A stretch of DNA of 64,000 nt, taken from positions 124,001-188,000 of the forward strand of contig JAJEKV010000027.1 in NCBI GenBank assembly GCA_021234155.1, read 5' to 3'. Position 1 is the stretch's first letter. Each line of letters opens with the position of its first letter. Below the pieces are notes generated by a model. It was not told the DNA's origin. It did not search any database and saw only the letters and a program-made list of their open reading frames with translations. Of this stretch, positions 8,187 to 36,510 are shown one piece after another. Both the position numbers and the translations under genes were made by a program. This DNA comes from Isoetes taiwanensis (taxonomy: Eukaryota > Streptophyta > Lycopodiopsida > Isoetales > Isoetaceae).

Positions 8187-9419
8187 CTAAACTTTGCCAA
8201 ATCTCGTGAAATTTAGGATCGGTCGGAAGAGCTTGATCAACTGTCTTCCCAAACTCACTGTTGAGCGTGGAGATAGCATTACAATGCGTGCGAATGACAA
8301 AGGATGCTTAGAAAAGGCATCGGCAATGACATTGTACTTGTCCGGCTTGTAGACAACGTCAAAATCATATTCCTCCAAGAATTCCATCCATCTATGTTGA
8401 CGAAAATTGAGGTGGGGTTGTGTGAATATATATTAAAGACTTTGATGATCTGTGTCCAACTAGAATCTCCTCCTAAGAAGGTAATATCTTCAAATTCGCA
8501 AAGCCCGCACAACGGCAAGCAATTCTTGGTCATGCATCGGGTATCGCTGCTCCGCGTCATTCATCTTCTATGACCCTTCCCTCTTGCATTAGTACGCCTC
8601 CCGTAGCTATCTTACTGGCATCAGTGGCAATCGACTTATCCTTTTGAGGATCCGGCAAGGTGAGAACTGGAGCAGTAGTTAATTCTTCCTTCAATTCCTA
8701 GAATCCGGACTAGACTTTCCCCTTTCAATATGTTATCCAATCCCTGACTTTTTCATGTTTTGTGAGATCAGTGAGGGGGACAGCTATCTTTGAGAAATCC
8801 TTAACAAATTTTCGATAATAACCCGCCAAACCCAAAAAACTTCCGACCATTGAAACATTTGTAGGATTGGACCATTCTTTAACAACCTCAATCTTAGCTG
8901 GATCCATGGAAATGTCGTCAGCAAAAACAATGTATATTAAGTAATCCACTTTAATGGCCGCAAGTTTGCACTTGGAGAATTTAGCAAATAGTTGATGGCA
9001 TTGCAATTTTTGTAGGGCCAGCCGAAGATGGCGTTCATGGTCCCGTAAAGTCTTATTATAAATAAATCTATCATCAAAGAAGATGATGACAAATTCATCC
9101 AGATAGTCATGGAAGACATCATTCATTAGCTGCATAAATGTCACAGGGGCATTGGTTAGTCCAAAGGGCATAACCGTGAATTCATAATCCCCATAATGGG
9201 TCCTGAAGGCTGACTTATGGACATTCTCCTTTTTTATCCTTATTTAGTGATAACCGAATCGAAGCTTGATCTTGGACAAGCATTTAGCTCCTTGTAATTG
9301 GTCCATAAGGTCATCGGCCCCCAGTAGAGCATACCGATTCTTAATAGTATGCTTATTTAGTTGCCGGTAATCAATACACATCTGTAACATGTCATCTTTT
9401 TTCTTGACAAATAGAATGG
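8187..9419 (-). pseudogene. Ty3/gypsy reverse transcriptase and RNase H, 3' part
   Basis: Going downstream on the minus strand, the first frame (9244-9432) gives ILFVKKKDD, then CIDYRQLNKHTIKNRYALL. The frame at 8725-9171 gives MPFGLTNAPVTFMQLMNDVF, a degenerate FFDD box where YxDD is expected, and GLAGYYRKFVKDFS. The RNase H/connection piece at 8187-8387 ends in VVYKPDKYNVIADAFSKHP. Frameshifts separate all pieces. The upstream RT residues are not adjacent but lie 13.9 kb away at about 23292-23340, because another element was inserted exactly here. Confidence 0.9.
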
Positions 9420-9480
9420 AACACGATTGCAAATTAAACGGGAGTGTTGCATCACTCCCGTTTCAAAGATTCCCTTTAAA
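9420..9480 (+). repeat. Left terminal inverted repeat with internal hairpin
   Basis: This terminus pairs with 23215-23291. Positions 9436-9463 also form a perfect hairpin, with 11-bp arms AAACGGGAGTG around a 6-nt loop. The right terminus lacks the hairpin but has a second, directly repeated GAAACGAGAG in its place. Confidence 0.75.
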
Positions 9481-9768
9481 AAAACACCATGTTTCTAAAA
9501 TAAGTCTTTTTTGATAGTTGTTGAGAATTTCTAGAGGTTTGCATTTTTTTTCATGCCATTTTGGCCCATCATTAGGCGAAAACTTTGTACTTATGAAACA
9601 GAAATCATAAAAATAGTGAAATTTAGGCATAGACTTGAAGAGACTGAAAGCATTACAAAAAAAAGCACCAGAATAGAAAGGAAAAAAAAGTAATATGTTT
9701 TTAATAAATTTTTGTATATCAATATTGAAGATTCATTGTAATAAATAATGATAATTTTAATATGCAGT

Positions 9769-12700
9769 CAAGGTTGTCACGTACGTCAAAATCCGTACGG
9801 GTTTCGTACGTTTTTAAAGATTTTTTGAGGTTTTTTAAAAAATTTTGAAAAAAACTTTAAATACGTTTTTTATTTAAAAAAATCTTTAAAAATCTTAAAA
9901 ATCTTAAAAAACCTTAAAAATCTTAAAAATCTTTAAAAATCTTCGAATTTTTCAGAAATACATGAAATTCCAGTAAGAGTTCTTATATCATTTAACTTGC
10001 CTTGAGAGTTCATGTCAAAAAACAGTTAAATCCTTGTTTGTACTTATAATAATAGCCCCAAAAAGAGTATGTTCAGCATTTAGCATTACATTAGCATTGC
10101 ATCCACTTACTAATAATCTCTAATAATAGTAGAAAGCTTGTTCTAAGAGCATATCAGTCTAAGACTTGCTGATTTTTTATAGCAGCGCATAAGTAGTGAG
10201 ACAACCCAACAAACAATTAAATAAATTAGAGTAAAGAAGTTGAAAATTTAAAGTAACTAGATTCATTCATCTTCCTCGTCAGAAGACTCTGTTGTACTAG
10301 CACCATCGTCATCCATTGCATCCGAGGAGTCGTCATCTAGCAGCCCATAATCAAAATCTTCTTCCTCGTAATTGTTTTCACCAAACTGATCATTTTCTTC
10401 AACCTCTTCAATCATGCCTGCAGCAGTAGACCTAGTCGTTATAGTCCTCCTTGCATTTTGTCTCACACCACGGCCTCGCCCTCGCCCTCGTCTCCCTCTA
10501 GACCTGCTTCCACTTGTACTAGCTAATTCAGCTGCTGCCCTGGATCTACTTCTTGTGATCCGACCAATATTCATGGCTTCTGCCTCTTCAAAATATGTTT
10601 GGGCCAATTGTGTATCAATATCAAGCAAAGGTGTGGGTAATTCGGGAGTCTTCTCAATATCTATCTCATCAGGATTAACCTGTCAAATCAAAATAAATTG
10701 GCTAATCTAGAAAATAAAGAATGAAAGAAATTAAGCAAATAATGGAACCTGCGATGGGAGACTATGACGAGTTTCAAAGTTGCGCACAAGCCTTAAAGTT
10801 TCTCGAATATATACTAACCGCTCTACTTGTTTTACCTTCAAACGGTTCCTTCTCTTCGTATGAGCCAATGCGTGTGCATTCCAATTTCTTTCAGCAGCAC
10901 CAGAAGAGCAGTCCTGTGGCATAAATTACGTCTCATATAACAGAAATAAAGTCTTGTTTATATGAGCATATATTGATATAAACAAGTAGATATACCTGCG
11001 ATAATATCCTACGTGCTAAGGATGCAAGTAATGGCACGGAATCTCCGTATCTTTCCCACCAAGACACGGGCTTACACTTTGCACCATGTGACTTTGATAG
11101 CTCATTCGTAAATCTGCCAACACCATTCCTGTACATATCTAGTTCATCTTGCAGTCTTTCACACTCCTCTATAGAATAAACTCGTTGAATATATGACAAC
11201 CATCCATCAGTTAACTCTTGGCTCATCATTGTCGTTTGATCTGTTGGCTTCCAAAGAGGATGCAAAATGTGGGCAACCATGTGAATGGGTTTCTTGAACC
11301 AAGTCCAACGCTCATCAAAACATTCTAGAACTTCTTTGTACCTACATCAAAAATATAAATGTAAAATTGATGTTACATGAAAGTGTACAGCAGATTTACA
11401 ACAGAATTTTTGAATGATATAAACATGAAAAAAAAAAAGATACTTTCTGAAACTCTATTATAGCAGAAATCAAGTGTGTTAGATACTTTCTGAAACTCTA
11501 TTATAGCAGAAATCAAGTGTGTTACAGCAGAAAGAAAACATGTTATAACATGCCAAACAGGGCATTCAAAAAATTTATAATAACATAAATAAATTGCTGG
11601 TACAATAAGCCACTTAAAAAACCTGAATACTTAAAAAAATCAGCAAAAACAAATAAAGAATTGACTTACTTGTGTGAGCTCGTGGCCTCGCTTGAAGCTC
11701 CATTCTCTAAAACAATTCTAGCCCTTCTCATAAACTCGTATAATAATCCCATTGTTGATCCTTCACGATCCGTGAGGCGAAGAACAGAAAATAATGGTCG
11801 CATTACTGTGATTACAAGCGAAATAGAAGGCAAAGTACTAGGATCTAGTATAATAGATTTAACTCTGACGGCATCATTCTTGCTAGAGTCGGACCAATCT
11901 CTCCAATAATTGCTAACCACGGTTTGTTCCAAGGCACTCCAAACTCTTGCAAGCCTCTCAAGCACAATGAGAATATACCCAAACCGAGTTGCACTTGGTC
12001 TAATAATCACAAGGTTGGAATAATGGCTGAAAATCTTTCTTGCATTCCGTTTCTTTGTAAATAACTTGACCACCATGCTTGCTTTCTTATGGACGTCATG
12101 AACCCAACTCAACTTTCCAATATCCTCCAATAATAAATCTAAGCAGTGTGACGCACATGGAGTCCATACAAGCTTGGGAAATTCAGCCTCTAAAAGTTTT
12201 CCCATCAAGATACAATTGGACGCATTATCAGTAACAATTTGCACTACATTTTCAGGGCCCACCTCTTTTATGGCAGAAGATAACATTTCAGCCAGCCAAG
12301 CACCATCAACAGTTATTGCTACATTACTAGAATCAATTGATTTCAAATACAAAGTTCCGTAACAACAAGATACCAAAACATTGACAAGTGCACGTTTGCT
12401 CGTATCGACCCATCCATCTGAAAGAATTGTGACGCCATATTTTGGCCAAAGTGCTTTTACATTTTCAACTTTGCGTTGCACTTGCACAAATTCCTTGCGT
12501 AAATATTTTCCCCTCATATCATGGTAGGAAATGCCAGTGTAATTTTCTCCTATTTCTGAAAATGCAGCCAACATATTTTTCCAGCAAGACATCTTTAAAA
12601 GATTGAAGGAGAGATTACCTTCGACGATGCATCTGACCAACATAGAATTGGCCTTCTCCTTCCTAATCATTGTAGCAGCATTTGATGCCTTCGATCCCTT

Positions 12701-15292
12701 CTTGAAGGTGCTTTGGCTGAAACTTGATGTCTTCTTAGGAGCAGCGGCATTAGAGTTATGAGATTGCGGAATAGAGGCAACACCCACACTACTTGATGCT
12801 TGTGGCTGAAATCCCATGTCAATGGAAGAAGATGCCAGGCCAGGAGTATGACCACCACCAATAGGCTCCTCGACCTCATCTTCGTCATCCAACAAATCAA
12901 CTGACTCAGCTTCTCTAGAACGTTTTTTAGTCCCCATATTTTTTGATTCTCCAAGTGCCTCCTGATAAACTTCTGGAGGTACTTGTTGACATGCTGATTT
13001 TCCATAACCTGCTAGTCCAGCAAGATGAGCAACAAGACGTGTCTTCGTTCCCGTGCAATAATCATCACAAAAAACACAGTTCCAACTATAAACTCCAGCT
13101 GATCCTGTATTTTTTCTGTTCTTGGTATATTTATCCCATAACTTGCTTTTCCCTTTTGCCATCGTGATGAAAAGTTCGATAAATCTGACATGCCAAGGCA
13201 TCAAAAGTCAAGACCAGAATAAATAAATAAAGAAATACAACAAGGCAATAACAAGGCTAGTTTCCAAAGAACCATATACTTGATAAGTCTGTTTTAAGAT
13301 TTAATTGATATTGATGTCTCATACTATAAGATGCATTTAGAAAACAAAAAGGGTTTCTTGAATAACATAGCAACATCCCTGCTGTTGAAAACGTTATTGT
13401 ACCTTTGATCTTGGTCTCAAGTTGGGGTTTCTTGCGTACTTCAACTAAGAAAAATCCAGCCAGTTCTGCATGCGCTCTCTCTTCTCAACTAACTTTGCAA
13501 CAGCATTGGCATTGTATACAACCTGCAATTAAGGAATCAGACAAGCTAATTTGACATACCATTGCTGAGGCTATTGAGACAAACAGGGCATTCAAGTTCA
13601 TATACAGAAAACATGTTACAGACCGTGTTATTCCTCAGCTTCTCTCTTTGAGAAATCAACAAATCTTGCAGCAGGAGTTGACCCAGCTTCCAGAGTAGGC
13701 TTTGCACCTTACAATCCTCATTTGGTTGTACAATCCAAGCTAGATTTTATTGAGCCATCAAAAAAGGAGTATGGCGCTTTTGGGCGGACTTTCTTTCTTG
13801 ACAAAATGGCATGCATCGAAAGAAAAAGAAAAACAGAATATACTACAAATGGCTGATCATTGATCAAACAAGCGAGCCCATGTGTGTGGTGGAAGATTCA
13901 TCAAAATCGAGTCATCTAATCTTAGTGAGGCATGCGGAACCAAACATCACCAACACCTCTTGTAAGCAATATTGAGAGAGAAGTAGAGAATGCGGGGTGG
14001 GGTTACTCGGGGACATCAAAGTTGTGAAAGCGGCGGGCTCCTCTTGAGGCGATGAATGAGAATAGCATGGAGCAATCTCACAAGCTCCGGATTGGCTGCT
14101 AAAGATCTTGAAACTATTGCATGAAGCAGCGTTTAAATCCGCGGTTTTAAATTCTTTAGCGGCCGGTGGGCATTGCGGTGGCATGGCACCTCATGCCATT
14201 GTCGAGACCTATATGGACTGGAATTTGGCAACCAATGTCTTCACTTTCTCCGGCACATTTGTCTTCCGCAATGGAAAACATGTGGCCCGGATTAAATTCA
14301 GAACCTTCTCCACCAAAGCAGGCTTAAATTCAGAACCTTCTTGCTGCAGGCTTGAACCCAGCAGTTGCTTCCTTTTATCAAAATGCAAGTCACTGAAACA
14401 GAAGCCCAAAGACAAAAGCTGGTTATTATTTTCACAGACTATGATGGTTTCTTATATGATTACTATTTCTCCTATCATATTTCGCTACATTTCTAGAATT
14501 TTCCAGTTCAATCAATACAGTTTTCTCACATACAAGCCATTCGACTTCCTAAAGGAGATTCATAAAATTAAATTGAAGAAATCAAACGAAAAACTTCATA
14601 GTATTTAAGATAGAAATAAGTACCTGATGGCCAAGATAGTAATCCAGATGGTTGACACGGAAGAAATGATCAATATGAAGGCTTATTGGATCATCCGGAT
14701 CAAAAATTGGTATCTGCTTGGGACTAAGACACAGAGACCAATATTTCAAGCTTGTTTTAGACGAAAAATTATACATGGAAGTTAAACTTATTCCTCATTC
14801 AGCCTGTAACTTGAAGTTCAATAACATTCTAAACACTCTCCAAACAGGTATCGAATTGTAAACAGGTCTCATCTGCAATGGATGCTACTGTGACTGTGTA
14901 ATGCAAATCAACCACAATAGTAAGCTTTTCTAAACACTAAAGCTAAGAATAAACCTTGAAAGCCAGATTATCTTGATGCAGCCATATATATGCCCTTGTT
15001 TCCTGCTATGCTAAAGAGGAAGCTCCCTGCCCACTAGTGTACAAACATCCATAATAGAATTGACAGAGGCTACAGCGGCCACGGTGAGAATCGAATCGGC
15101 TACAGCCGCCACGGTGAGGTTTTGCCACAAAATTTTTTGCTGCCCTAAACCCTAAACGTGCATGAAACTATTTTGGGACAAAAAAATTTTTTTGGACTAT
15201 TGACTAGACTAAAACATAAAAATCTTCATAAATACGTACGGATTTTTAAAAAAGTATTTTATGAATAAAAATCGCGTTTTTTAACAACATTG
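9769..15292 (-). mobile_element. Complete hAT transposon, 8-bp target duplication TATGCAGT
   Basis: TATGCAGT occurs immediately outside both ends (9761-9768 and 15293-15300). The left end starts CAAGGTTGTCAC; the right end, on the minus strand, starts CAATGTTGTTAA. Both subterminal regions carry AAATCCGTACG and many short CTTAAAAAT-type repeats. The 5,524-bp element holds one four-exon transposase gene with clean splice sites and no stop, so it may be autonomous or recently active. The 13.2-15.2 kb part is 5' non-coding DNA with no gene that I can support. Confidence 0.93.
10263..13162 (-). CDS. hAT transposase, BED zinc finger and DUF659-type, four exons
   Basis: Cut-and-paste transposase. 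Exons on the minus strand are 11670-13162, 10996-11341, 10749-10913 and 10263-10679. All have GT-AG borders and compatible phases, giving about 806 residues. I start at MAKGKSKLWDKY, where the BED-type finger region begins (WNCVFCDDYCTG, then H and C ligands). The RNase H-like core has LSDGWVDTS with the first acidic residue, VTDNASNC with the second, and the TPCASHCLDLLLEDI segment. Exon 3 has AAERNWNAHALAHTKRRNRL, the conserved glutamate/dimerisation block of hAT enzymes. The C-terminus is an RG-rich stretch followed by an acidic tail ending SSDEEDE. No disabling mutation was seen. The first intron contains a tandem duplication of about 43 bp (11441-11525). Confidence 0.9.
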
Positions 15293-15302
15293 TATGCAGT
15301 AG

Positions 15303-18300
15303 TCAAAGATCTACATCATAGTCCTCCTCATTCTTTTTGCTGCTCTCTGCCGTCTCGTCCTTCTGTTCAATCTGCTCCTTTGCTGGAGACTTAAGTTTTG
15401 TATCCTCCTCGTTCTCTGGAATGGTAGCTAAAGCTACTTCTTTAAGCTCTGCAAAGGTTGCCTCGTCGTCTAGTGAACTCGAGAATGGAGGCTGTATCTC
15501 TGAGGACGTTAGTTTAGCATAATCAGATGAAGACTTGGCCCCTAACTCTTGATTTTCATCACGGTAAAGTAGGTAAAGGCAGCCAGTCTCATCTTCACAA
15601 AATGCCACTGACCTCCTTATCAATATCCACGGCTACAGTTGCGGCCCTTCTTAAGTGCACATCGCGATAGTAGTACGAACCGAGGAGAAAGCATCAAGCA
15701 CCCAATCTCTGGGCCGAGAACATGTCGGGGAGATGGTTGATGAGCTTTTGTGGTTTTGGTAGTGATTCACAATCTGCCTTGTGCACTTGGGTCCTGCAAT
15801 TTACGTAGGCTATTTGGAAACTCTAGGGCGTTTGAAAAGTTTTGGCCAATGGCGGTGTTGAAGTGTTCCATGGACCTCTTCCCATCAAAACTCCAATAAG
15901 CTACATGAAGGTACTCTACCTTCGAGCAACCTTGGTCCTCCACCATGGTAGTTGATGTTAGTTTTTGTACCTAGTGAAGCATTTAAAGTGATGTTAGCAA
16001 AAACAAGAAAACACTTGAAAACCGAAAGCGAGGAAACACTATTCGGAATACACTCGTAATTAAAAGAAAAATAATTGTGATACGGAATAAGACTTACCGA
16101 ACAAAGGTTTTCATATATCTGCTGGCGGGAAACCAAAGTGATTTTTGAAAGCTGATTCCACCAAAGCGGTACATGCTTCGAATGGAGCGTAACTAAGCGC
16201 CAATGTTTGGCCGTTGAGATCTGCTTGATTCCTTCAATGAAAGCATTAAACTCACGAAAATTTGAAGGGCTGGTCGTCATTCTCTGGCGTCTTTAAAAAC
16301 TTAAACCGTAGGGGAAGATCAGCAATAACCAAAGTAAAGTCACGTGGCTTAACCGTTCCGACAAGGTTAGGTTGCAATCACCATGAATGATTGAATATAA
16401 ATTGTTTTGATCAAACATCACGAGAATCACATTTACGGCTCAGCAGTTCTTCTTTTCATTAATCGACCTCTCTTCACGTCTTTGTTGACCAAATTCATAA
16501 AGCCCTCGGTGCGGTCCTTATTTTTCTTTTGCTCTAAAGAAAAACAAAACAACAAGCGTCAAGAGATGGTTTGTGCGAGAGAAAAGGAATTTTGAGAGTA
16601 CTTACCCTCAAAATTTGGTGCATATTGCACAATAAAATGTTCGTCCGATGTGGCAATTAGGGTAGAGTTCCTTGCACCTTTCCATGTTTACGGCGTTTAG
16701 CTGCTCCATCAAACATGTTTGACATGTTATGACGTTCTTTGGCTGCAAGACATTAAAGAAACAATGAGATTAAGCGTAAGAATCAAGGCAAAGTAAAAGG
16801 AAAACAAATAAAAGTCAAGCTATTTGTATTACGGAATACAAAACCGTTAACTGTGATGCTACCTCGAAACAATATGCGAGAAAATAGTTACGCTGCACAG
16901 GACAAACATCTTGCTTGTCTCTAGAAAAGCAATGTGTATTCCTAATCTGATTGCTTCTCTAAAGGCAATGTGTATTCGGAATACACATGCCTTTCTTTAG
17001 AGGAGCAATGTGTGTCGAATAACAATGCTTTTCTAGAAGACAACAATATTTGTATTCAGGAATACATTGCCAGGTGTGAAGGAAGGCATGTGTATTCGGA
17101 ATACACTATATGCTTAGCCGATGTTTTTTGGGAATCTAACATGCAAAGAGTAAAGTTTGTGTCGAGAGAACTTACTTGTGCAATTCCTTTGACATTTCTT
17201 CTAGGCTAAACTCCTTATCAACAACTTTTTGGAGAAGGCGTTCGGAAGCTCAGGTGTCGGAGAAAGCCACGCATTTCCCTCAGGGCGGTAATGGTCATTT
17301 CTTTTTTTTTTAGCACGTCAGGGTTTTTTTCTTGGTACGTCTCCTTGCCCTTGCTCTTTAACTCCCTATTTCGAACATTGTAAATATCTAGATCACGGGT
17401 TCCCAAATCTGTTCAAGAAGATTTCCGCGTCAAATAGTGGGTTTGCTATTACGGAATACATTTTGTGCTTACCTTGCCATCTCTAAAAGCTAAGCGGAAC
17501 CGGTTAATGGTGGCCAATGAGAGGCGCCTTTTATTGGCCTCGTCATATTCGGCGGCATTCAATGGCACCGCCTCCTTAAGCTCCAAGGAAAAGCGGCCCG
17601 GCTTCTTAAGGTCCTCACCGTACTTTTCCTTGAAAATTACATACTCCTGATGCATAAACCGGATCTTGTCGACAAAGCTCATCTTTTAGTTTGTACTTTC
17701 GTTGTCGGCATTGTGGGTGTTGGCAGCGATTTTTTACTTCTTCATCACGTAAAGACCACGGTATGCAACGGTGTAGAGGGGCGGAGAGGTACCTCGGGTT
17801 CTTCTTTTCTTTGTAAAAGTTGCCTTCTTGCCTTGAAGCTATGATTCCCTCCCAAGGCGTAGTGAGTGTAGGTGTCGGCGTTTTCTGTCATACTCACGGG
17901 GGTTGTGCCTTTGCTCCCACGTCAACAAGGACAACTATTGGGGCCCACATGAGCATTTGGATTGCTCCTTATTACGTCCTTCAGGTTCCTCAAGTGATGG
18001 GCATAAATTTTGCGAACCTGAAGTGGCCTTTCACCGACTTCATTTTTAGGAGGAAGCTTCATTGAAAGTGGCCGGCAAATAAATGACACCTTGCACAAAC
18101 TTGTGCGGGTTAATCTCTTCCATTTTTCAGATGTTTTATCAACTTTTTTTTTTTCCTTAATAGCAACACGGGTGCTTTACCCTTCCCCTTCTTCTTCTTA
18201 GGTTCCTCGGGGACTTACGTGATTTCAAATTGGCGTGCTTTCCTTCTTTGGTTCTTTAGCAGCTATGGTTGCCCTTGGCTTTGCTAAGTTTCTTTGGCCG

Positions 18301-18900
18301 CCTGAGGGGTTCTTCCTCGTCTTGTTCACGGGAACCTCCATCCGATGACCTCCACGAAGAACTAGCATCGAGGGGTGATGATTGTGACCTTTCTCCATCG
18401 AATGCTTCGGACTCAGCGGCGGGAAAGTCCTGCTTGTGCTGGTAGAAACACGTCTAATTCTTGAACACATGCTTCTTTTTGTCAGGTAGTGTGAAAAGAA
18501 TTTATCTGATCACCGGTGGTTACCTGCCGACAATTCTAAAAATCGCGATGTCCACAACTATGAAGCCTTGGGAGGTCTTGAAAAGATAGCCTCCCCACGA
18601 CCACCTTGTCCGAGCAACTTCCTCAACATCTTTTATTGTCCCAAGGTTCTACAAGGCTTCGGTCGGGCGTACCTTTTTGTCGGCACTTTTCTGGGGCGGT
18701 ACAAAAGCGTTAGTGTCTTTGTATTTTCCATCTGCACCCACAGTTCTGAACCAACTGCGTTTGAAAGTTTTAAGTAAATAGCGAGTTCATCCGTGTCGGC
18801 GGTGTGCTTTTGTGGGTGTGGGCCAGCTTAGGCTTGTGAGATTTCTTTGATGCCCTCTTGCTTCCTTCTTCCACACTTGAAGCGTTTAAAACAACAATGT
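15303..18900 (-). pseudogene. ParB-like domain fused to beta-class DNA methyltransferase, decayed
   Basis: Minus-strand gene read across frames. An N-terminal region has ARTRWSWGGYLFKTSQG (about 18.55-18.6 kb) and a basic/acidic linker (18.2-18.45 kb). A ParB-like module follows: ERPLQVRKIYAHHLRNLKD, SNPNAHVGP (17.9-18.04 kb) and ALGGNHSFKARRQLL (about 17.84 kb), then MSFVDKIRFMHQEY (17.68 kb). The methyltransferase follows: SIIHGDCNLTL (about 16.38 kb), FTLVIADLPLRFKF at the DPPY position (about 16.32 kb), QISTAKHWRLVTLHSKHV, a target-recognition-like stretch, KPQKLINHLPDMFS (motif X, about 15.74 kb) and DWVLDAFSSVRTT (motif I, about 15.69 kb). The order IV-X-I is that of beta-class N4/N6 enzymes, and ParB-methylase fusions are known in phages and bacteria. 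Introns have GTAAG donors (near 17463, 16606 and 16098). Frameshifts, stops and lost P-P-Y and G-x-G residues show it is dead. The acidic tail stops 10 bp from the hAT. The gene may extend to 20372. Confidence 0.75.
16910..17115. repeat. Degenerate copies of the same palindrome
   Basis: GCAATGTGTATTCGGAATAC, AATACATTGCC and GGCATGTGTATTCGGAATAC recur here at irregular spacing, between coding exons of the ParB-methyltransferase relic. They share the TATTCNGGAATA core with the regular array at 19.1-19.3 kb. Confidence 0.6.
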
Positions 18901-19118
18901 TAAGGCAAATTGAGCAGCGTATTCGGAATAACATTTACTAATCTTGTGCCCTAAAGGCCAGAAAAAGACAGGAAAACAAGCAGAAATATAGTAACTCTAA
19001 GACAATTTTTTGTGCCTTAATTGGACTCGAAATTGTTATTTTAACCTTTAAAGTGGTCTGTTTTAGCTAAAAGGTGTCTTCATTAAGTGCTAAAAAACAA
19101 GAGTTTCCAAAAAGACAA

Positions 19119-19313
19119 GCAAAGTGTATTCCGGAATACACTTTGCCCTTCGGGTGAAGAGCAAAGTGTATTCCGGAATACACTTTGCCCTTCAGTGAGG
19201 TGCAAAGTGTATTCCGGAATACACTTTGCACTTCACTCGATGACCAAAGTGTACTCGAATACACTTTGCTCTTCGACTGTGAATGGGCAAAGTGTATTAC
19301 GAATACTTTGCCC
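19119..19313. repeat. Array of five long palindromes at 41-42 bp period
   Basis: Three perfect 28-bp palindromes (starts 19119, 19161 and 19202) and two imperfect ones (about 19244 and 19286) share the core GTGTATTCCGGAATACAC extended by GCAAA/TTTGC. Spacers are about 13-16 bp and usually contain CTTC. The even period and dyad symmetry look like binding sites for a dimeric protein. The array lies in the 5' part of the ParB-methyltransferase gene region, probably in an intron. Related looser copies lie at 16920-17110. Confidence 0.85.
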
Positions 19314-19719
19314 TAAAACAAATCGGGGAAACAAAAAAGAAAGTGCATTACTATGTACTTTATATGCTTACCTGTCCATTGTCTTCGCTATGTAAATCGG
19401 AATACAGCAAATGTATATTGATCGGAAGGCGCTCGGGCTGGCGACTAAATCTCTTAAAGCGGAATACGCAACTGAGGCGCTCGATTTTCCTTTTTAAAGG
19501 TAGGCCACTGTCAGTTGTGTTTTTCTATGTAATGCGGAATACGTCTTGTCCAAACACTCACGGACAAGTGTGATTTAGAATAACATCTTTGCACACACAC
19601 AAAATCTTTGCACACAAAATACTATTCGGAATAGCATTTGTATTCTTGAATATCATTAGTTCAATCGACTTGTGAGTTAGTAACAAGCCCACAATTTTTT
19701 TTGCGGTTGTTTGACATGG

Positions 19720-20372
19720 TTAACCGCCATTGAACAAACTTCCACCGCCATTTGTTTGCCCAAGTACCTCAAGCTTCCCGGATGGAACACAAGGCCCAGA
19801 TGCTTCTTCAACACCTACCTCGACAAGGTCTTTGTTGCTTCTAAGACACTCAGGAGTCCGATAACTAGCGGTTGCCACCACCTTTCCAACCCTCTCCAAG
19901 TCCGGTGGGAAAACCGCCGCCACCACCTTTCCAACCCTCACCGTTTGCCGCGTAGCAATCTTCCACCACCATTTGTACCATCCCCAGACACTACAATGGC
20001 TCGACCTCGACGACAAATTTTTCGAACCGACTACCTCCGTAGTTTGTTGTTTCTCCATCTTCACTTACACATGCCGAGGAATCGGCCGTTAAAGGCTGCG
20101 AGATCCTCCATAAACTTCTCTACCCGCGATTTCACTACAAATGAAGGCGACCTGCGGCATCTACACCTCTTCACAAAGCGTGGTGACACATGGGTTTTGC
20201 GAATTTCGATCGCTTTAAAGAGACATGTTTGAGCGAACTCCACAATGAAGGCAGCTACAACAACTTTATTTGGCACATCATATGGTGGCCCATCTCCTTC
20301 ATTCAACCTTTGCACCTCCGCCTTATCCAGAATTACGCGACTTCCGCGTGGTTTGTTCTCCTCTACAAGCAC
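19720..20372 (-). other. Coding-like minus-strand stretch, possibly 5' exons of the ParB-methyltransferase gene
   Basis: Two abutting frames (20061-20372 and 19720-20064) give SRVILDKAEVQRLNEGDGPP and VVAAFIVEFAQTCLFKAIEI, then basic and Gly/Val-rich sequence. I recognise no domain. The stretch lies upstream of the ParB-methyltransferase relic on the same strand and divergent from the DUF7869-like gene, so it could be that gene's first exons, with 20.4-20.65 kb as a shared promoter region. The opposite strand has an equally long frame, so coding status is uncertain. Confidence 0.3.
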
Positions 20373-20680
20373 ACCACTAAGGGTAGAGGGAGGTCACCCC
20401 CGAGTAGAACTCTCTTGAGGAAGATGAAGACACCAACGAAGTGCAACGAGATTACACATTCTCTAGCCAATCCACTAAGAAATTCAAGGTGGATTTTAGT
20501 TTGAGAGCATGCTCCTCTGTAGAAGAAGAAGAAACCTTATGGGCCGAGCACAAAATGAGAAGACTTTTAAGAAGTAAATCTTTGCTCATTGGGTTGCATC
20601 AACAAATTTAACGTGGCTAAATTACGAGCAATTAGAGACAACTTCTGATTCAATGACATTGGCTGACCCGGAATGCTTAT

Positions 20681-22914
20681 TTGGCCTATCATGTAAGACC
20701 AGACCGCAACACCTTCTTGCACTACATTAACCGTCAAGAAGTTTGCCAGAAATGCTTTATGGTTGTCCACCGTTTAGGGTCCACCAGAATGTCTAGAATA
20801 CACAAAAGACTGGACAAAAATCCAGCAATTGATGATCATTGTGGACCAAGAAGAGTTATAACCATGCATGCCCTTGCTGCTGTGTCGTGGATGGAGAAAT
20901 ATTTTAGAGAAACATGTGAGAAGCTGCCTAACAGTAACATGTATCATTTAACTGATAACATCACCAAAAAAGATGTTTTTAATGAGTACAAAGAGACTTG
21001 CACTCAGCTTCAGCACATCTCTTACTCACACTTCACCAGACTGTGGAAAAGTGAATTCGGTTTAGTGAAAATTCCCAGGAGACATAGAATGTCTGTTTGT
21101 TCAAGGTGTGCAGAATTAAAGAGTCAAAGAGAAACTGCAAAGACAGAGGTCGAAAGAAGTAAGCTCATGTTCTCCAATCTCTCACTTGTTTTAAAGATAA
21201 TGCTTTGACCTCATTTCTTCTACAGATATTGTGCAACAGAACCTTGCCAGACATCGTGAACAACAAGCAGCAGAGAGAAGAAAGCTTGCCAAACACAGAA
21301 AAAAAGCTCTTGAACGTCCACTGCAATATATGTCTGTTGTGATTGATGGAATGGACCAAAAAAAAACTACTCTACCGCATTTCTTGAACATTCCTAAAGA
21401 TGTGCCAGAGGAATGTTTTGTTAAGGTCCACCTTGTAGGAGCTATGGTCTTCAAAGGAAGTCTAAAGTGCAAAGTATTCTTGACGTATCCAAACTTGCAT
21501 GGTGACCCGAACCTCACAATTACAATTCTTAACAAGGTCCTGTGCGAGCAAGAGCAATTACCACCAGTGCTTTACCTGCAACTTGACAATACTACAAGGG
21601 AGAACAAGAACCAAACACTCTTTGCGTACTGTGCCATGTTAGTGGAGCTAGGGATCTTTAGAAAAGTGAAGCTGGGTTTCTTACTTGTAGGCCACACTCA
21701 TGATCAAATTGACCAAATGTTCAGCAGATTTTCTGTGCGCCTCAGAAGGAAGAAGGCTTTCTCTCTTCCTACTTTAGTTCGAATTATTGAAGATTCTTAC
21801 ACTCCCACTCCAGTGATTGATCTTCTTAAAGAGACTGCTGATTTCAGAGAGTTTATTTTCTCTCAACGTTCAGACAGAGAACAAGCTGTGAACAAATTGA
21901 ATGATCTCACCTTTCAACATCACATCAAGTTCTACTTGAAGGATGACCAGAGTTTCTTACAGGGCAAGAAGTATACCACAACTAAGGACTGGAGTCCACC
22001 AGAGGGATTACGCTTCCTTAAATATATTCCAGACACTTCCTTCGTAGAACGTGCTGAGCAACTTCCTCTCAAAAATCCTAAGGAGTCCAAGCAGAAGAAA
22101 AGTACCCCAGAGTCATCCTTAAAAGCCATAGAAAATGGAATTTCCTCAGGCTTTAAGTACTTCTTAGAAGAAGATCGAATGTGGTGGAGTAACTTCTTTC
22201 TCGAACAGAAAATTGTTGTGAAAAATATAGCTCTAAGACAGTTGCAAGAACCATTTCAATGGCCTAACACCTTCCATCAACCCCAGCACCAAGCAGGTCC
22301 AAGCAATGCTACGTTAGCACTGCAGAGAAGAAGACGAGGATCGAGTCATGTACCTCGGACCAAGACGCAGGAATGAGCCTCAAGGTAATATCACAGAAAT
22401 TACCAAGGGTATGCTAATTGCTCTTCCTACTGAGGAGGATGACAAAGGTCGACCTTTCTGGATAGCAAAAGTGCTTGACACAGTCAAGGAGGAAGGCTTA
22501 GTCACTAAACTCAAGATTCATTGGCTTGCAACACGCTCAGAAAATGCTTTTGAAGGTAGATATGAGTTAGAAATGAGAAGCCAAGGAAAAGGGAGAAAGT
22601 CCAAGAAGGTGGGTTGTAGGGATGAGCTGATCCTTAATGACGTGACTATATTATGCTATGATTTTAAATTGAAATCTGACAATCGTCTCACGGAAGGACT
22701 ATCAATTTGCTTAAAAAAAGCTTGTAATTACGAAGAAGATGATGAAGAAGGTGGTGGCAATGCTTCACCATCTGTTGATAGTGATGAGGAAGATAACTCA
22801 AGCACTTCCTCTAGTGATAGTGAAAGAAGTGAAGGTGATGAGGATGGCATAAATGAACATGATGACGTCCTGGATCCCTCTCTCATCACTCCTCACACTT
22901 TTGTACATAACTGA
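20681..22914 (+). CDS. DUF7869-like protein, candidate transposase of the 13.9-kb element
   Basis: Exon 1 (20681-21158) has a helix-turn-helix-like start (EVCQKCFMVVHRLGSTRMSR), then SYSHFTRLWKSEFG and a Cys pair (SVCSRCAELKSQRE). A 67-bp GT-AG intron (21159-21225) joins in phase to exon 2. Exon 2 has acidic segments that look like an RNase H-type active site: VVIDGMDQ, LQLDNTTRENKNQ and LLVGHTHDQIDQMFSRFS. These match the family signature known as DUF7869. The frame stops at 22374-22376, but the next frame (22348-22914) continues naturally with YLGPRRRNEPQG, FWIAKVLD and a Glu/Ser-rich tail, so one frameshift near 22300-22350 is likely. The true start lies upstream of or near 20681, where the first in-frame codon is TTG. 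The role as transposase is inferred from position and motifs; alternatively it is passenger DNA. Confidence 0.65.
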
Positions 22915-22919
22915 GTCTT

Positions 22920-23291
22920 AGAAAAAGACTGTAAATTTTGCATGTGAATATGAAGATTCTATCTTCAAATTTTGAGAATACTACAGTTTCAGTTACGGAC
23001 TTACTTCAATTTTTTGTTAAATATTTTATCCTCTGAAATTAGAGATTCTCTCGTAAAATATACTTCAAGAACATTCTATTTGCTTAGAAAAGTGACACTT
23101 TAAAAATGTCAATTCTTTGGTTGCACAAAAAAATTAGTCATTTTGGGGGGGTTCAAAATAGAATTTCATGCATCTTTTTTTTTTTAACCTAGTTTCACCC
23201 CCTTTTTGTAAAAAAAAAAAAGGAATCTTTGAGGAATATTCCTTTCGCTCTCGTTTCGATGATTTGCTCCCGTTTAATACGCAATCTTGTT
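22920..23291. other. Right terminal region of the 13.9-kb element
   Basis: Non-coding AT-rich DNA after the DUF7869-like gene, with homopolymer runs (a T run followed by an A run near 23177-23221). It ends in the right terminal inverted repeat (about 23215-23291), which pairs with 9420-9480. No gene seen. Confidence 0.7.
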
Positions 23292-23839
23292 ATGGGTGCT
23301 CCAAAAGGTGAGACACATGGGTGAATGAAATCTAGCTAAAGAAGTTCCTGCAACTGCTCCCAATCAGGCTAGCAATGGCTTTGGGCAAGCCTCTAATAGT
23401 CTCTTCTTGCTTAGAAATAGCTTCTACTGATGCAAGTCTAATAATACAAGCAACTTTATCTCTCCTGATGGCTTTATCCAACTGACGCAATGATATACAT
23501 TGTATAATCGAAATTATTGGGTTACCTGCGATAGTGACACGGGTCCCATTAGATGTGTTGAATGTGACCTCTTGCTTCTCACAGTCAATATTGGCCTTTG
23601 TGGTGGCCAAAAACTCTGGATTTGATGATAAGGTCATACTTACCAATATTCAGAATCTCCGCATCTAAAGTAACGGGTTCTCTTGGCAACTGAATGTTGA
23701 GGTTAACCCAGCAGCCCTGTATGTGATGGATAGCTCCACTAGCCAATGTAACTGGACATGGATTAGACTTCAAAAGGGTGAGCTGTAAAGCTTCGGCCAG
23801 TCTAGGAGATGCAAAATTGTATGTACTACCCATATCCAT
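23292..23839 (-). pseudogene. Ty3/gypsy aspartic protease and start of reverse transcriptase
   Basis: The protease begins MDMGSTYNFASPRLAEAL, where DSGA would be expected at the catalytic site, and continues PVTLDAEILNIGKYDLIIK. The next frame reads ANIDCEKQEVTF. The start of RT follows on the minus strand as LDFIHPCVSPFGAPI and stops at the ATGG border (23292). The rest of RT resumes at 9419. Multiple frame breaks make this a relic. The protease would have cut the gag-pol polyprotein. Confidence 0.85.
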
Positions 23840-25110: not shown

Positions 25111-25713
25111 AAAGAAAAAATAGATTATAGATGGTATGTGCGTATGAAAAAAGAATGATTCATATAGTATGCTATTTTCGTTTTGGGGTTGGGGAGGGTT
25201 TTCAGGCAGTGGTTTGGCCTATGATTTCCGTATAGTATTGTATTGAAAAGGGTATAATTTGCCATCTTAGAGGAGCTTCACTGTTTGATGCTATTTTGGG
25301 TGGTCTGGAGGCCGCTTTTTGCATGGGGCGTTGTTGCAAGGGTTGAATTGCAGTGAGCCGGATTTGGAAGGCACCAGCCATTTGGATCGCTGCCCTGTGG
25401 TGTGTGTACAGAGGGAGGCCTCTGGGAGAGGCAGGCGTGCGCTTCGGCATGTGGGAAACGGCCCGCTATCATTTCTGTGGTGTTACCGCTGAAGCAATCC
25501 GGCTGGAGCTTGGAGGGCGATGGAGGCTGTTGGTGAGCGTCCTTGAATCCCTCACAAATCTCGTGTGTTTGTCTGTGCACGGTCAGTGAGGCGAAATTAG
25601 CATAGCAGGCCGTAGGTGAAAGGTGTTTCCGGAGAGGGCTGGGCAAACTTGGATTCCTGTGTGTGTGTGGAGGCTGGGGCCAGAACGCTGCAGCATGCAG
25701 ATGAGAAGAGAGG

Positions 25714-27779
25714 GTGGTGGAGCAGAGGCGGTTGTTCGATAGTTGTCCCTGCAGGTGTTGTAGAGACGGAGGTGGCGGGCCTATATTTCATTCCCTTGAT
25801 GCTGTAGGCTGTCCACCCGAGTGTAGTAGGGCTGCTGAGATCAGGAAGGGGAGCTGGAGCAGAAGGCCTGCCCCAGTTAGCTTTGCGAGGCCACAGCCAC
25901 CGCTTCGGGATGTTGTAATTGAGGGGGACGGAGGTCTGGATGGGAGGATCAAACAATTGAGCCTGGGGATGGGGAGTTCAGTGCAGAGAGGTGGAAGCGA
26001 GAGAAATGGTGGTCCAGTGCGGGGTGATGCTGGTATACCTGCCGTGTTTGAGGATCGAGTAGGTGCATTGGCACCTGATATGTGTAGGAAGGATGGAGGA
26101 AGGCGGGGAAGGGGTGGTAGAGGTGGAGGTAGACTAGGTAGTGGTGGGCGCCGAGGGGGAAGGCAGGTGAGATGCGCGCCTTCAATCACACAATCCGGTG
26201 CTGAACCTATATGGGATGAGTCTGTAGAAGAGGCGGAGCCCCGTGTCAATGTTAGGACTGCCAGGGGTGGGGCTAGGAAGCGGGGACGTGGGAGAGGCCG
26301 TAGGATCCCCAGCTTCATAGAGGAGCATGTCGGGATTGACATTGGTGGGGGGCCTGGAGAAGAAGCTGTGGAGTTGCCCGGGGTGCTAGATGCATCCGTG
26401 ACGATTGTGTTTGGGGGATGTGATGTCCCACAAGCGTTATATGATCGGATGATTGTGTTTCTGAAGGAGAAATGCAAAGCAGGTGTGGTTGCATTGGAAA
26501 GAGGGTCAGACCTTGACCATTTGCACATCCAAGCTGTGATGCGATCTGACGCGAAGACCCCATCCAGCTTGAATGTGAGAATCAAGAATTTTCTAGGATG
26601 GAACACTTGTAAACCGGTAGGGGCCATGATCCTGTGCAAAGCCTTGAGGGGAAGCAAATTGCATTGCTTCGAAGGCCTCGTGGGCTATTGTTTGAAAGAC
26701 ATGGGGAAGTTACACTTTAAAGCTCACATGCACAATGTATCTTCGGAGCAAGTGCACACTGGGAAGGAGCTTTATGCATTGTATGGGGCTGGGGAGGTCA
26801 AGCATTTGATAGTGCTTGACAATCGAAACCTCATGGCCAAAGCTTTCCACTATGTGTCATATCATGCTGGCAGGTTTAGGACTGTCTCCCTTCTTCACAC
26901 CATCAGATGCATGCTGCAGACCGGCAAGTTCAGGCTGGCAAGTTCTTGGGTGTTGCCCAATAACTCTGCATATGCCTCGTTGGAACGAGTGCAAGCAGCC
27001 TGGCGGATTATGCTGGCACCGCAGCAATGCAGCTATAAGGATGTGCGCATGGCATTATTTGGGAGCCAGCCAGGAGTGGTCCCAATAGAGCGTGTTGGAA
27101 GGAGAAGAAAGCGCTTTTGGGATGCTGCAGGCGTGTTCGAGGATGGGGAGGAGAGATCTGGAGATGGAAGCAGTAGTGATGAATTCGTCTATGCTAATAG
27201 CGGAGTGCAGCCCCCGTGTCAAGAGCCTGCTGATCCCTATGCTGATTTCATCCCGCTTGACATTAGGGATGATGAGTTTGATGTAGTTTGATGTAGCTGC
27301 TTGCCTTTACGCTTTGCTTTTATTTCATTGTGCTTCATTTAGCTAATGTCCTTGTTGTCGCAGGTGACAATGGTATGGGGGTGGGACCTCGTCATGGGCA
27401 GGAGCTAATTGTCATCACCGATAGCTCAGAGGATGCTGAATCCATTGATCAATCGGTTGTGGAGTCAGGCAATAAGGAGGAGGTGTATGATTTTGTACAG
27501 GAACTAAGAGATGCAGAGGAAGCTGTTAGGGTTGTCTGCGCAGCAGTGGGGAATCTTCGTACGGCGCTCATGGCCTTACTCGAGCAGATTGAGAGTGCTG
27601 TTGAGTTGGTTGAGGCTTGTCCTGTAGACGATGCTAGTTTTGAGAGGAAGATGCTGCGATCACACTTGAACCTCACTAGGGGCTTGCTCATAAGGGAGTT
27701 ACGTGAGCTGGAAGTGATAAGGCGCAGGCATGACACCCAGGATGCTGGGCCTAGCAAGAGGAGGACAGGTGATCGATAG
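25714..27779 (+). CDS. HUH endonuclease-like (Replitron-type Rep) protein with RGG-rich N-terminus
   Basis: The plus-strand frame 25714-27291 is uninterrupted for 525 codons and is GC-rich compared with its surroundings. Residues about 110-210 are RG/RGG-rich. The core has VTIVFGGCDVPQALYDRMIV, then ERGSDLDHLHIQAVM with the HUH pair (HLH at about residues 269-271), then FEGLVGYCLKDMGKLHF with a candidate catalytic tyrosine at about residue 325. This layout matches Rep-type HUH nickases that start rolling-circle-like transposition, closest in my judgement to Replitron proteins. No helicase follows, so it is not a RepHel Helitron protein. A second frame (27330-27779), preceded by an acceptor-like TTGTTGTCGCAG ending at 27363, gives an acidic/coiled-coil sequence that may be a spliced C-terminus or a separate ORF; I could not find a donor in phase. 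The start could be 25714 or the ATG at 25969. The virus-Rep alternative seems less likely. Confidence 0.65.
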
Positions 27780-35158: not shown

Positions 35159-36510
35159 TCATTGTTTAGCTGCTGAAATTTGAACAAGTCGTTGATCTAA
35201 TACATCAACATGGATTTTACAAGCATTAAGCAAGGGAGTCCATGTCACTATATCTATATCATTTCGTTTTGAACCTCGAAGCAAAAGTTCTGCTTCTCTG
35301 ATGCTTCCAACATAGCCCAATAGATCAATCATGGAGGTATAATGGGGAATAGTTGGCACAACTCCCATTTCTTTCACGGCATTAAAATACCATCGAGCTT
35401 CCTCATGTAGACCTGCACGATTGCATGCAATAAGAATCTCGTCTGGTTTCATTCCTTCATGTGGTATGTTCTCAAGGCATTGGACAGCCATGGGACCTTT
35501 TCCATGCTGTGCGTATCCTGCCAACATTGAATTCCATGATACCATATTCAGGTTTGACAAATTATCAAAAATCTCTGTTGCCTCCTCTATGCTCCCACAA
35601 TTGGAATACATATCTACTAGTGTACTTCCAACAATAACATCTGATTGAAGCTGCTTTTTAGTAATCTGTTTGTGAATAAGTCAGCCGTGCTCTATTGTCC
35701 CTATGTTCATACACGCCCTCAAGGAACTGGAGAATGTTCATCAGGCTTAAATCCTTTCTGTTGCATTTTCTCATAACATTGCGGGGCCAAAGTGCTATCT
35801 CCACATTGGACATATCCTGCAATCAATCCATTCCATGTCACAATGCTTTCTTCTATGCCTTTCTGTTGCATCCTGTTAAAGCATTCCATAGCTAGGCCAT
35901 ATTGACCAGACTTAGCATATCTTGAAATAAGTGAATTCCATGTTACCACATTAGGCTCGATGCCTGCTTGCTGCATATTGTTTTCAAGTTCGAGAGCTAC
36001 AACATCTGCTCCTTGCTGCGCATATCCTGATATAATAGCATTCCAGGATATTAAATCTCTACGTGGTAGCTTGTCGAAGACCTTGCATGCGTTGTTTAAG
36101 CTACTACATGTGACATGTGTCCAATTAGCGCGTTCCATACTCAAGGAACTGGAGAATGTTCATCAGGCTTAAATCCTTTCTGTTGCATTTTCTCATAACA
36201 CCAAAGTGCCATCTCCACATTGGACATATCCTGCAATCAATCCATTCCATGTCACAATGCTTTCTTCTATGCCTTTCTGTTGCATCCTGTTAAAGCATTC
36301 CATAGCTAGGCCATATTGACCAGACTTAGCATATCTTGAAATAAGTGAATTCCATGTTACCACATTAGGCTCGATGCCTCCTTGCTGCATATTGTTTTCA
36401 AGTTCGAGAGCTACAACATCTGCTCCTTGCTGCGCATATCCTGATATAATAGCATTCCAGGATATTAAATCTCTACGTGGTAGCTTGTCGAAGACCTTGC
36501 ATGATTGTTT
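35159..36510 (-). pseudogene. PPR gene relic with internal tandem duplication
   Basis: The downstream part (35159-35611) reads MYSNCGSIEEATEIFDNL, NMVSWNSMLAGYAQHGKG and MIDLLGYVGSIREAELLL, the end of a PLS PPR protein with an E-like tail. Upstream, one block of PPR motifs (DLISWNAIISGYAQQGADV, GIEPNVVTWNSLISRYAKSG, ESIVTWNGLIAGYVQCGD) is present twice, at about 35719-36140 and 36141-36510. The two copies are nearly identical apart from short deletions. Frame breaks separate the parts, so this is a pseudogene or a very recent rearrangement of a working gene. Confidence 0.8.

Follow-up and report, generated by a model that had tools for sequence, protein, structure and literature searches.

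Proteins joining a ParB-like domain to a DNA methyltransferase are already known from eukaryotic transposons. The closest described case is Sola1-1_Ec32 of Ectocarpus, a 21.5-kb transposon bearing an accessory gene with a 1104-amino-acid product, and the sections of that report available to us also name similar proteins in transposons, cite green and red algal precedents, and propose that a transposon is bound and modified by the protein of this type that it encodes (PMC12477816). A second relevant system is VANC of the Arabidopsis VANDAL elements, whose targets, according to the available part of the text, are arrays of motifs in non-coding DNA, introns and upstream regions among them, and differ from one related element to the next (PMC5735166). 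Here we describe a 64,000-nucleotide stretch of the Isoetes taiwanensis genome (the window; C1031:124001-188000, within a searched genome of 1,658,258,908 bases on 1110 contigs), which contains a transposon with terminal inverted repeats (TIRs) whose second gene is predicted to encode a fusion of a ParB-like half with a beta-class amino-methyltransferase half. The published assembly of this species drew on Nanopore reads (PMC8566536). We give rather better than an even chance to the reading of the window copy as a dead member of an abundant, probably Sola-like family of cut-and-paste transposons, whose fusion protein would read the element's own palindrome arrays and methylate the element.

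As in Sola1-1_Ec32, the accessory gene lies on the strand opposite the (here probable) transposase gene and combines a ParB-like domain with an N4C/N6A-type DNA methyltransferase; compared by description, the Isoetes element differs in being about 8.3 kb rather than 21.5 kb long, in belonging to a land plant rather than a brown alga, and in carrying palindrome arrays (PMC12477816, as far as that text was available). The main text of the Ectocarpus report contains no word starting with ‘palindrom’ and no mention of ‘binding site’. With VANC and VANDAL the element shares element-specific motif arrays in introns and upstream regions that differ between lineages, whereas VANC removes DNA methylation, is nowhere called a methyltransferase in the part of the report at hand, and has a 9-base motif that is not a palindrome (PMC5735166). 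We found no land-plant case and no report of such arrays in the open-licence literature searched, and the main text of a 2025 eukaryote-wide survey of N6-methyladenine (6mA) makes no mention of ParB (PMC12695648). An original prediction for this DNA, made from its letters alone, was of a spliced ParB-methyltransferase fusion in a eukaryotic transposon, an idea that the Ectocarpus Sola1 element and the green and red algal cases precede (PMC12477816, same sections). The kind of system is already known, and it is the palindrome arrays that are new here.

The predicted fusion gene

Between 15.3 and 18.9 kb the minus strand of the window runs, with frame changes, through the motifs that had been named (GGNH, HGDC, IADLP, KPQKLINHL and DWVLDAFSS), and in other copies in the same genome the order is likewise LGGNHSFKARRQLY, HGDC, DLPYG and FSGSGTT. 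The gene was divided as follows.

17473..18114, minus strand: ParB-like domain at the end of exon 1 (GGNHSFKA box and MSFVDKIRFMHRE region in open copies)
17176..17408, minus strand: probable exon 2 (splice signals read by eye)
16606..16742, minus strand: probable exon 3 (splice signals read by eye)
16098..16533, minus strand: exon 4, the HGDC and (D)LPY methyltransferase part, damaged in the window (homology to open copies)
15303..15970, minus strand: exon 5, with KPQKLI (motif X-like), motif I (in open copies FSGSGTT), an acidic tail and the stop codon; damaged

Judging from copy C1034, the probable start of exon 1 is near 18.9 kb. Eight other copies share the splice signal that follows the ParB exon, and six share the one that follows exon 4. 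Several stops and frame changes interrupt the gene in the window. A frame-hopping read of its methyltransferase part, joined by hand, matches Pfam N6_N4_Mtase (E 1.5e-8, 35.3 bits, cut-off 26.7), while the hand-joined ParB part matches no Pfam family at E<=1. Because joining by eye can favour a match, we relied more on homology to copies in the same genome, whose open exons match the window with E 1.9e-36 for the ParB exon (the query being a composite of two copies) and 2.4e-20 and 1e-49 for the methyltransferase exons. The motifs in the window and these homologous open exons bear out the central claim of the original prediction, a spliced ParB-like/methyltransferase fusion of prokaryotic type inside a TIR element.

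Genome-wide, PF01555 gave 1443 candidates, and all 150 that were scored exceeded the Pfam cut-off; by manual count 124 of these 150 are stop-free in the matched stretch, mostly the C-terminal exon. The later decay that had been proposed therefore describes the window copy and not the family. When 16 pieces were checked exon by exon over three exons (the ParB part of exon 1, exon 4 and exon 5), three of them (C1034, L001 and L005) carried at least 80% of each tested exon in one open piece; towards the end of its ParB exon, C1034 shifts frame. Close to one family copy there is also a remnant of a second methyltransferase, which is more divergent and has the motif VDIPY (L019-L020, joined locus C1045, 14647-14813, antisense).

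The joined exons 4 and 5 of C1034 match PF01555 with E 3.1e-19 (70.2 bits, cut-off 26.7), and the closest solved structure to them is CcrM (6pbd, E 9e-12), in keeping with the CcrM-type beta-class amino-methyltransferases, in which the catalytic motif also precedes the S-adenosylmethionine (AdoMet) motif. The catalytic motif of the N6_N4_Mtase family is (D/N/S)PP(Y/F). Unlike CcrM-type enzymes, the Isoetes protein has DLPY (lineage A of the copies) or DIPY (lineages B and C) at motif IV and departs from the family's catalytic motif; its profile score is above the curated cut-off. What had been read as a degenerate DPPY site is thus a feature of the family at its second position, and damage in the window at the remaining ones. 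We consider it unlikely that the methyltransferase is catalytically dead and serves purely as a DNA-binding scaffold; the altered motif IV would be expected of such a protein, but the variant motif and FSGSGTT are both retained in open copies, and the ratio of nonsynonymous to synonymous substitution (dN/dS) is low in both methyltransferase exons.

The N-terminal half is ParB-like by remote profile-profile similarity, with no profile scoring above its curated cut-off. The best NCBIfam match of the ParB exon is TIGR03764 (integrative-element ParB; E 1.8e-4, 21.2 bits against a cut-off of 143.75), the lineage C ParB exon gave no NCBIfam match, and DUF6551, under its cut-off, was the sole ParB-like candidate in Pfam. 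Among PHROGs the exon matched ParB-like families at E 0.018 and 0.24 and an unnamed one at 2.4e-4, and a tblastn search of plasmids returned 11 records, all 10 of those listed (E 0.1-6) lying at genes annotated as ParB family. An hhalign comparison with four ParBs of the integrative and conjugative element (ICE) type gave 86% (80% with lineage C added) against 0.1% for a methyltransferase control, a comparison that is not independent, as the four were picked as matches of the same query. The GGNT/GGNH box and the LSFIEKA/MSFVDKI region align with those of the ICE and plasmid ParBs of TIGR03764 type; unlike these, the Isoetes protein lacks the arginine of the box and is fused to a methyltransferase. 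No ParA-like gene was noticed in the element, no profile search aimed at ParA having been made.

In phages, the methyltransferase part matched 72 records, all below 60% identity, and the ParB part gave one match at E 9. The idea of a ParB fusion in phages gained no support from the single phage methyltransferase inspected (L035), which is encoded by a gene of its own, of about 220 amino acids. Scans of viral contigs with ParB, DUF7869 and methyltransferase queries, and of genome contigs with the ParB query, found no relative.

Pairwise dN/dS was obtained by a counting method from ungapped pieces of at least 80 codons, skipping stops and leaving out pairs with dS <=0.05 or undefined through saturation; the pairs are not independent of one another. 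The median is 0.13 for the ParB exon (14 pairs, range 0.03-0.84, the three highest involving damaged pieces), and 0.13 (13 pairs, 0.06-0.23) and 0.08 (53 pairs, 0.02-0.22) for the methyltransferase exons. These low medians point to a fusion maintained as a protein while the element spread, and agree with the earlier view that the fusion was domesticated in the sense of being retained by the element. The window and C1034 are 92% identical in the DUF7869 half of the element versus 68-73% in the methyltransferase half, which suggests different histories for the two halves, either because modules were exchanged between lineages or because the methyltransferase half changed much faster.

Palindrome arrays and a divergent lineage

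In eleven loci (ten fetched copies and the window, element extents being taken from alignments), the palindrome TATTCCGGAATA occurs with at most one mismatch 134 times in 85,504 bp of element DNA versus 0 times in 112,496 bp of flanks. Counting sites with CG, TG, CA or TA centres, 113 lie in 54,316 bp of element outside exon matches and 0 in the 31,188 bp covered by exons; a single site with a TA centre lies outside elements. Apart from that one site, the palindromes of these loci all stand in element DNA. Like VANC targets they form element-specific motif arrays in non-coding DNA, mainly between the two genes and in the first intron past the ParB exon, a few also in the intron that precedes exon 5, and often spaced 41-42 bp apart. 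The extended consensus is AAAGTGTATTCCGGAATACACTTT, beyond whose palindrome the information falls off fast; as an exact 18-mer it occurs 2585 times in the genome, and its reversed pattern 0 times. On contigs C1-C62 a palindrome lies inside 9 of 10 TIR pairs, and 41 of the 50 listed sites are within 10 kb of an exact TIR core; six more pieces fetched around listed palindromes, covering six of the nine sites with no core nearby (the other three, on C46, fell outside the sample), all contain element-derived DNA. The window has 6 sites against 0.16 expected.

19127..19221, no strand: array of three exact TATTCCGGAATA palindromes at 19127, 19169 and 19210, 41-42 bp apart, between the divergent genes
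17447..17458, no strand: decayed palindrome in intron 1
17053..17064, no strand: decayed palindrome in the intron preceding exon 3
16827..16838, no strand: decayed palindrome in the intron preceding exon 3

Across copies L009-L028 and the window the centres are CG (63), TG (29), CA (21) and TA (1). The idea that TG and CA centres mark deamination of 5-methylcytosine was dropped, since several stand at the same place in many copies and so are not independent decay; they may be a fixed variant. These centres, together with the differences in unit number and spacing between copies, are what one would expect of minisatellite expansions without function beside a passenger fusion gene. We nonetheless regard that explanation as very unlikely: information content drops outside the palindrome, lineages A and B share the core despite a fusion-exon dS of 2.4-3.1 in the A-B pairs listed (a DUF7869 exon reaching only about 0.9), the same two places hold a different palindrome in lineage C, and the low dN/dS of the fusion exons does not suit a passenger.

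Three deletion derivatives (L030, L033 and L034) have one element end and a palindrome array and no exon match at E 1e-5, L030 retaining a short DNA match to exon 3. We rejected them as proof that the arrays are needed, the pieces having been chosen for having palindromes.

Lineage C was read in two copies, L040 and L044, which are 50% identical to lineage A in the ParB exon and 61-62% in the last exon. Neither contains a TATTC(C/T)(G/A)GAATA site in 16 kb; their array palindrome is TATGAATTCATA, as against TATTCCGGAATA in lineages A and B. It is represented by GTATGAATTCATAC, found 4 and 5 times: three of the sites lie in the first intron at spacings of 114-116 bp, the others lie upstream, and these are the same two places that the A/B palindrome occupies. 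By contrast, 14 lineage A/B pieces hold one GTATGAATTCATAC site at up to one mismatch. Genome-wide the 14-mer occurs 64 times versus 11 for the reversed control, and three further loci among the listed matches show the three-plus-two layout. The companion pieces L041, L042, L043 and L045 belong to lineage A; L042, a decayed copy, holds one site, which is TA-centred, and the other three carry the usual palindrome.

Two other readers of the palindromes have to be weighed against this contrast. If the sites served the DUF7869 transposase, as internal sites for synapsis, with the ParB-methyltransferase acting in some other role, it would follow that DUF7869 has diverged alongside the fusion in lineage C, where the palindrome is a different one (58-65% identity for DUF7869, from one of the two copies); the arrays, however, lie kilobases from the DUF7869-side end and not next to the TIRs in full copies, and we consider this reading unlikely. 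Because the arrays stand in introns and between genes rather than near the TIRs, we favour the accessory protein over the transposase as reader. A host transcription factor that drives the element, perhaps one resembling heat-shock factors, would suit arrays placed between divergent genes and a core, ATTCCGGAAT, that fits TTCnnGAA. Yet GAATTC, the lineage C core, departs from that spacing, many of the sites are intronic and downstream of the ParB exon, and a switch of sites alongside element proteins would not be expected, which leaves a host factor quite improbable.

The element, its DUF7869 gene and its surroundings

All-against-all alignment of ten copies, fetched as 18 kb each and picked among the strongest stop-free matches, yielded a common block bounded by TIRs. 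It places the element well beyond the smaller coordinates first given for it, with the following features and target-site duplications (TSDs).

9416..9419, plus strand: TSD ATGG, low side (identical flanks)
9420..23291, no strand: whole TIR transposon, 13,872 bp (TIRs, identical 4-bp flanks, alignment to other copies)
9420..9444, plus strand: TIR at the methyltransferase-gene end (core found 1466 times in the genome, reversed control 0)
9769..15292, minus strand: hAT transposon (DUF659 and dimerisation domain), with TSD TATGCAGT at 9761-9768 and 15293-15300
20657..22373, plus strand: DUF7869 gene of at least two exons, divergent from the methyltransferase gene (DUF7869 E 3.3e-52)
22318-22911: additional open frame
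23267..23291, minus strand: TIR at the DUF7869-gene end (alignment to other copies)
23292..23295, plus strand: TSD ATGG, high side (identical flanks)

The TIRs are 25 bp long, the left being AACAAAGTTGCGTATTAAACGGGAG and the right the inverse of AACAAGGTTGCAAATTAAACGGGAG. Identical 4-bp flanks were present in all six copies with both ends visible (five fetched copies and the window: TAAG, CATT, CTAA, AATA, GTGA and ATGG); in the remaining five fetched copies one or both recognisable ends were missing from the stretch examined. The exact TIR core occurs 750+716 = 1466 times, and among the first 100 of these listed there are 26 TIR pairs closer than 16 kb, 13 of which span 8.2-8.7 kb, 7 span 2.8-4.3 kb, 1 spans 6.8 kb and 5 are longer. 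The hAT, of 5.5 kb with an 8-bp duplication, sits directly past the methyltransferase stop codon in the 3' part of the element, and subtracting it and its duplicated 8 bp leaves about 8.34 kb, which matches the commonest of these size classes. The short pairs (contigs C57, C112, C179 and C224), some with a third TIR flavour, TTGCATATTAAACGGGAG, are probable non-autonomous relatives.

Duplications of 4 bp are made by several superfamilies. We nevertheless call the transposon probably Sola-like, because a 4-bp TSD is given as a feature of the Sola superfamily in the text available (PMC10741241) and because of the parallel with Ectocarpus Sola1. The window element was inserted into a gypsy retrotransposon whose reverse transcriptase lies on the low side (RVT_1, E 3.6e-16); when the flanks are joined over one ATGG the frame is open for 14 codons before the junction and 57 after it, the retrotransposon itself being broken farther away.

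DUF7869 lies upstream of the methyltransferase gene on the opposite strand, and the same divergent layout recurs in 7 of the 10 fetched copies, co-location having been counted within these copies only. We take its product to be the probable transposase, as no conserved gene besides these two was seen in the element. Comparison with PHROGs and solved structures gave nothing convincing, no mention of DUF7869 was found in the open-licence literature searched, and a single-sequence AlphaFold model of the frame was discarded (mean pLDDT 36). Its dN/dS is 0.12-0.21 over six pairs in the preceding exon, and 0.19, 0.52 and 0.62 in the three pairs for the main exon, two of them with a damaged copy.

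Elsewhere in the window we observed an open frame with a Replitron_HUH domain at 25705-27288 on the plus strand (E 2e-20), indicating a replitron-like element, and a long open frame with a DDE_1 transposase domain at 47827-49341 on the minus strand (E 1.2e-21), indicating a further DNA transposon. A PPR gene region (frame 35162-35680, assigned by Pfam) has a 300-bp direct repeat (99% identical) and one of 61 bp (100%) at 35718-36500.

Self-marking as a reading of the element

The favoured reading builds on the observed anatomy, the open exons elsewhere, the low dN/dS, and palindromes that are confined, in the loci read, to the element and differ between two protein lineages. From these, the identity of the binding protein, the occurrence of methylation and its effect are inferred. 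The ParB-like half would bind the lineage-specific palindromes between the genes and in the introns, and the methyltransferase half would place 6mA or N4-methylcytosine (4mC) on the element. Such a mark might identify the copy as self, with its promoter kept active, might gate transposition, or might do both, with an effect like that of the VANC anti-silencing proteins achieved through a methyltransferase. The original prediction had linked candidate N6-adenine or N4-cytosine methylation to transposition or escape from silencing, and the arrays, which it did not mention, have a bearing on that link. The more specific idea, that a prokaryotic ParB/parS-type module has been turned to self-marking, with the fusion reading its own arrays, adding a mark foreign to the host, and protein and palindrome switching together at the lineage split, we hold tentatively, at a little short of an even chance.

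Several observations weigh against this reading. The ParB match is weak, with no Pfam match over cut-off and TIGR03764 far under its own, and the arginine of the ICE ParB box is missing (GGNHS versus GGNTR). Motif IV in open copies is DLPY or DIPY, not DPPY, and no copy open over the whole gene was found among the 16 pieces checked on three exons. The palindrome core TTCnnGAA resembles a heat-shock element, of which it would be a minimal pair. Three of the 10 fetched copies have no DUF7869 match in the expected place, and one of the two lineage C copies has none within 8 kb upstream. The palindrome switch is a single contrast, L040 and L044 being nearly identical to each other, and DUF7869 diverged along with the fusion, so that the palindromes could be read by the transposase or by a host factor.

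If self-marking by the fusion is correct, this transposon, present in many copies in a land plant, would bring along the enzyme that writes a foreign DNA mark as well as the addresses that this enzyme reads. The proposal of self-binding and self-modification made for Ectocarpus would become directly testable, since candidate sites are named and the difference between lineages supplies a natural control. The element would then offer a sequence-specific DNA-marking protein of eukaryotic elements, and would bear on whether 6mA or 4mC plays any real part in plants.

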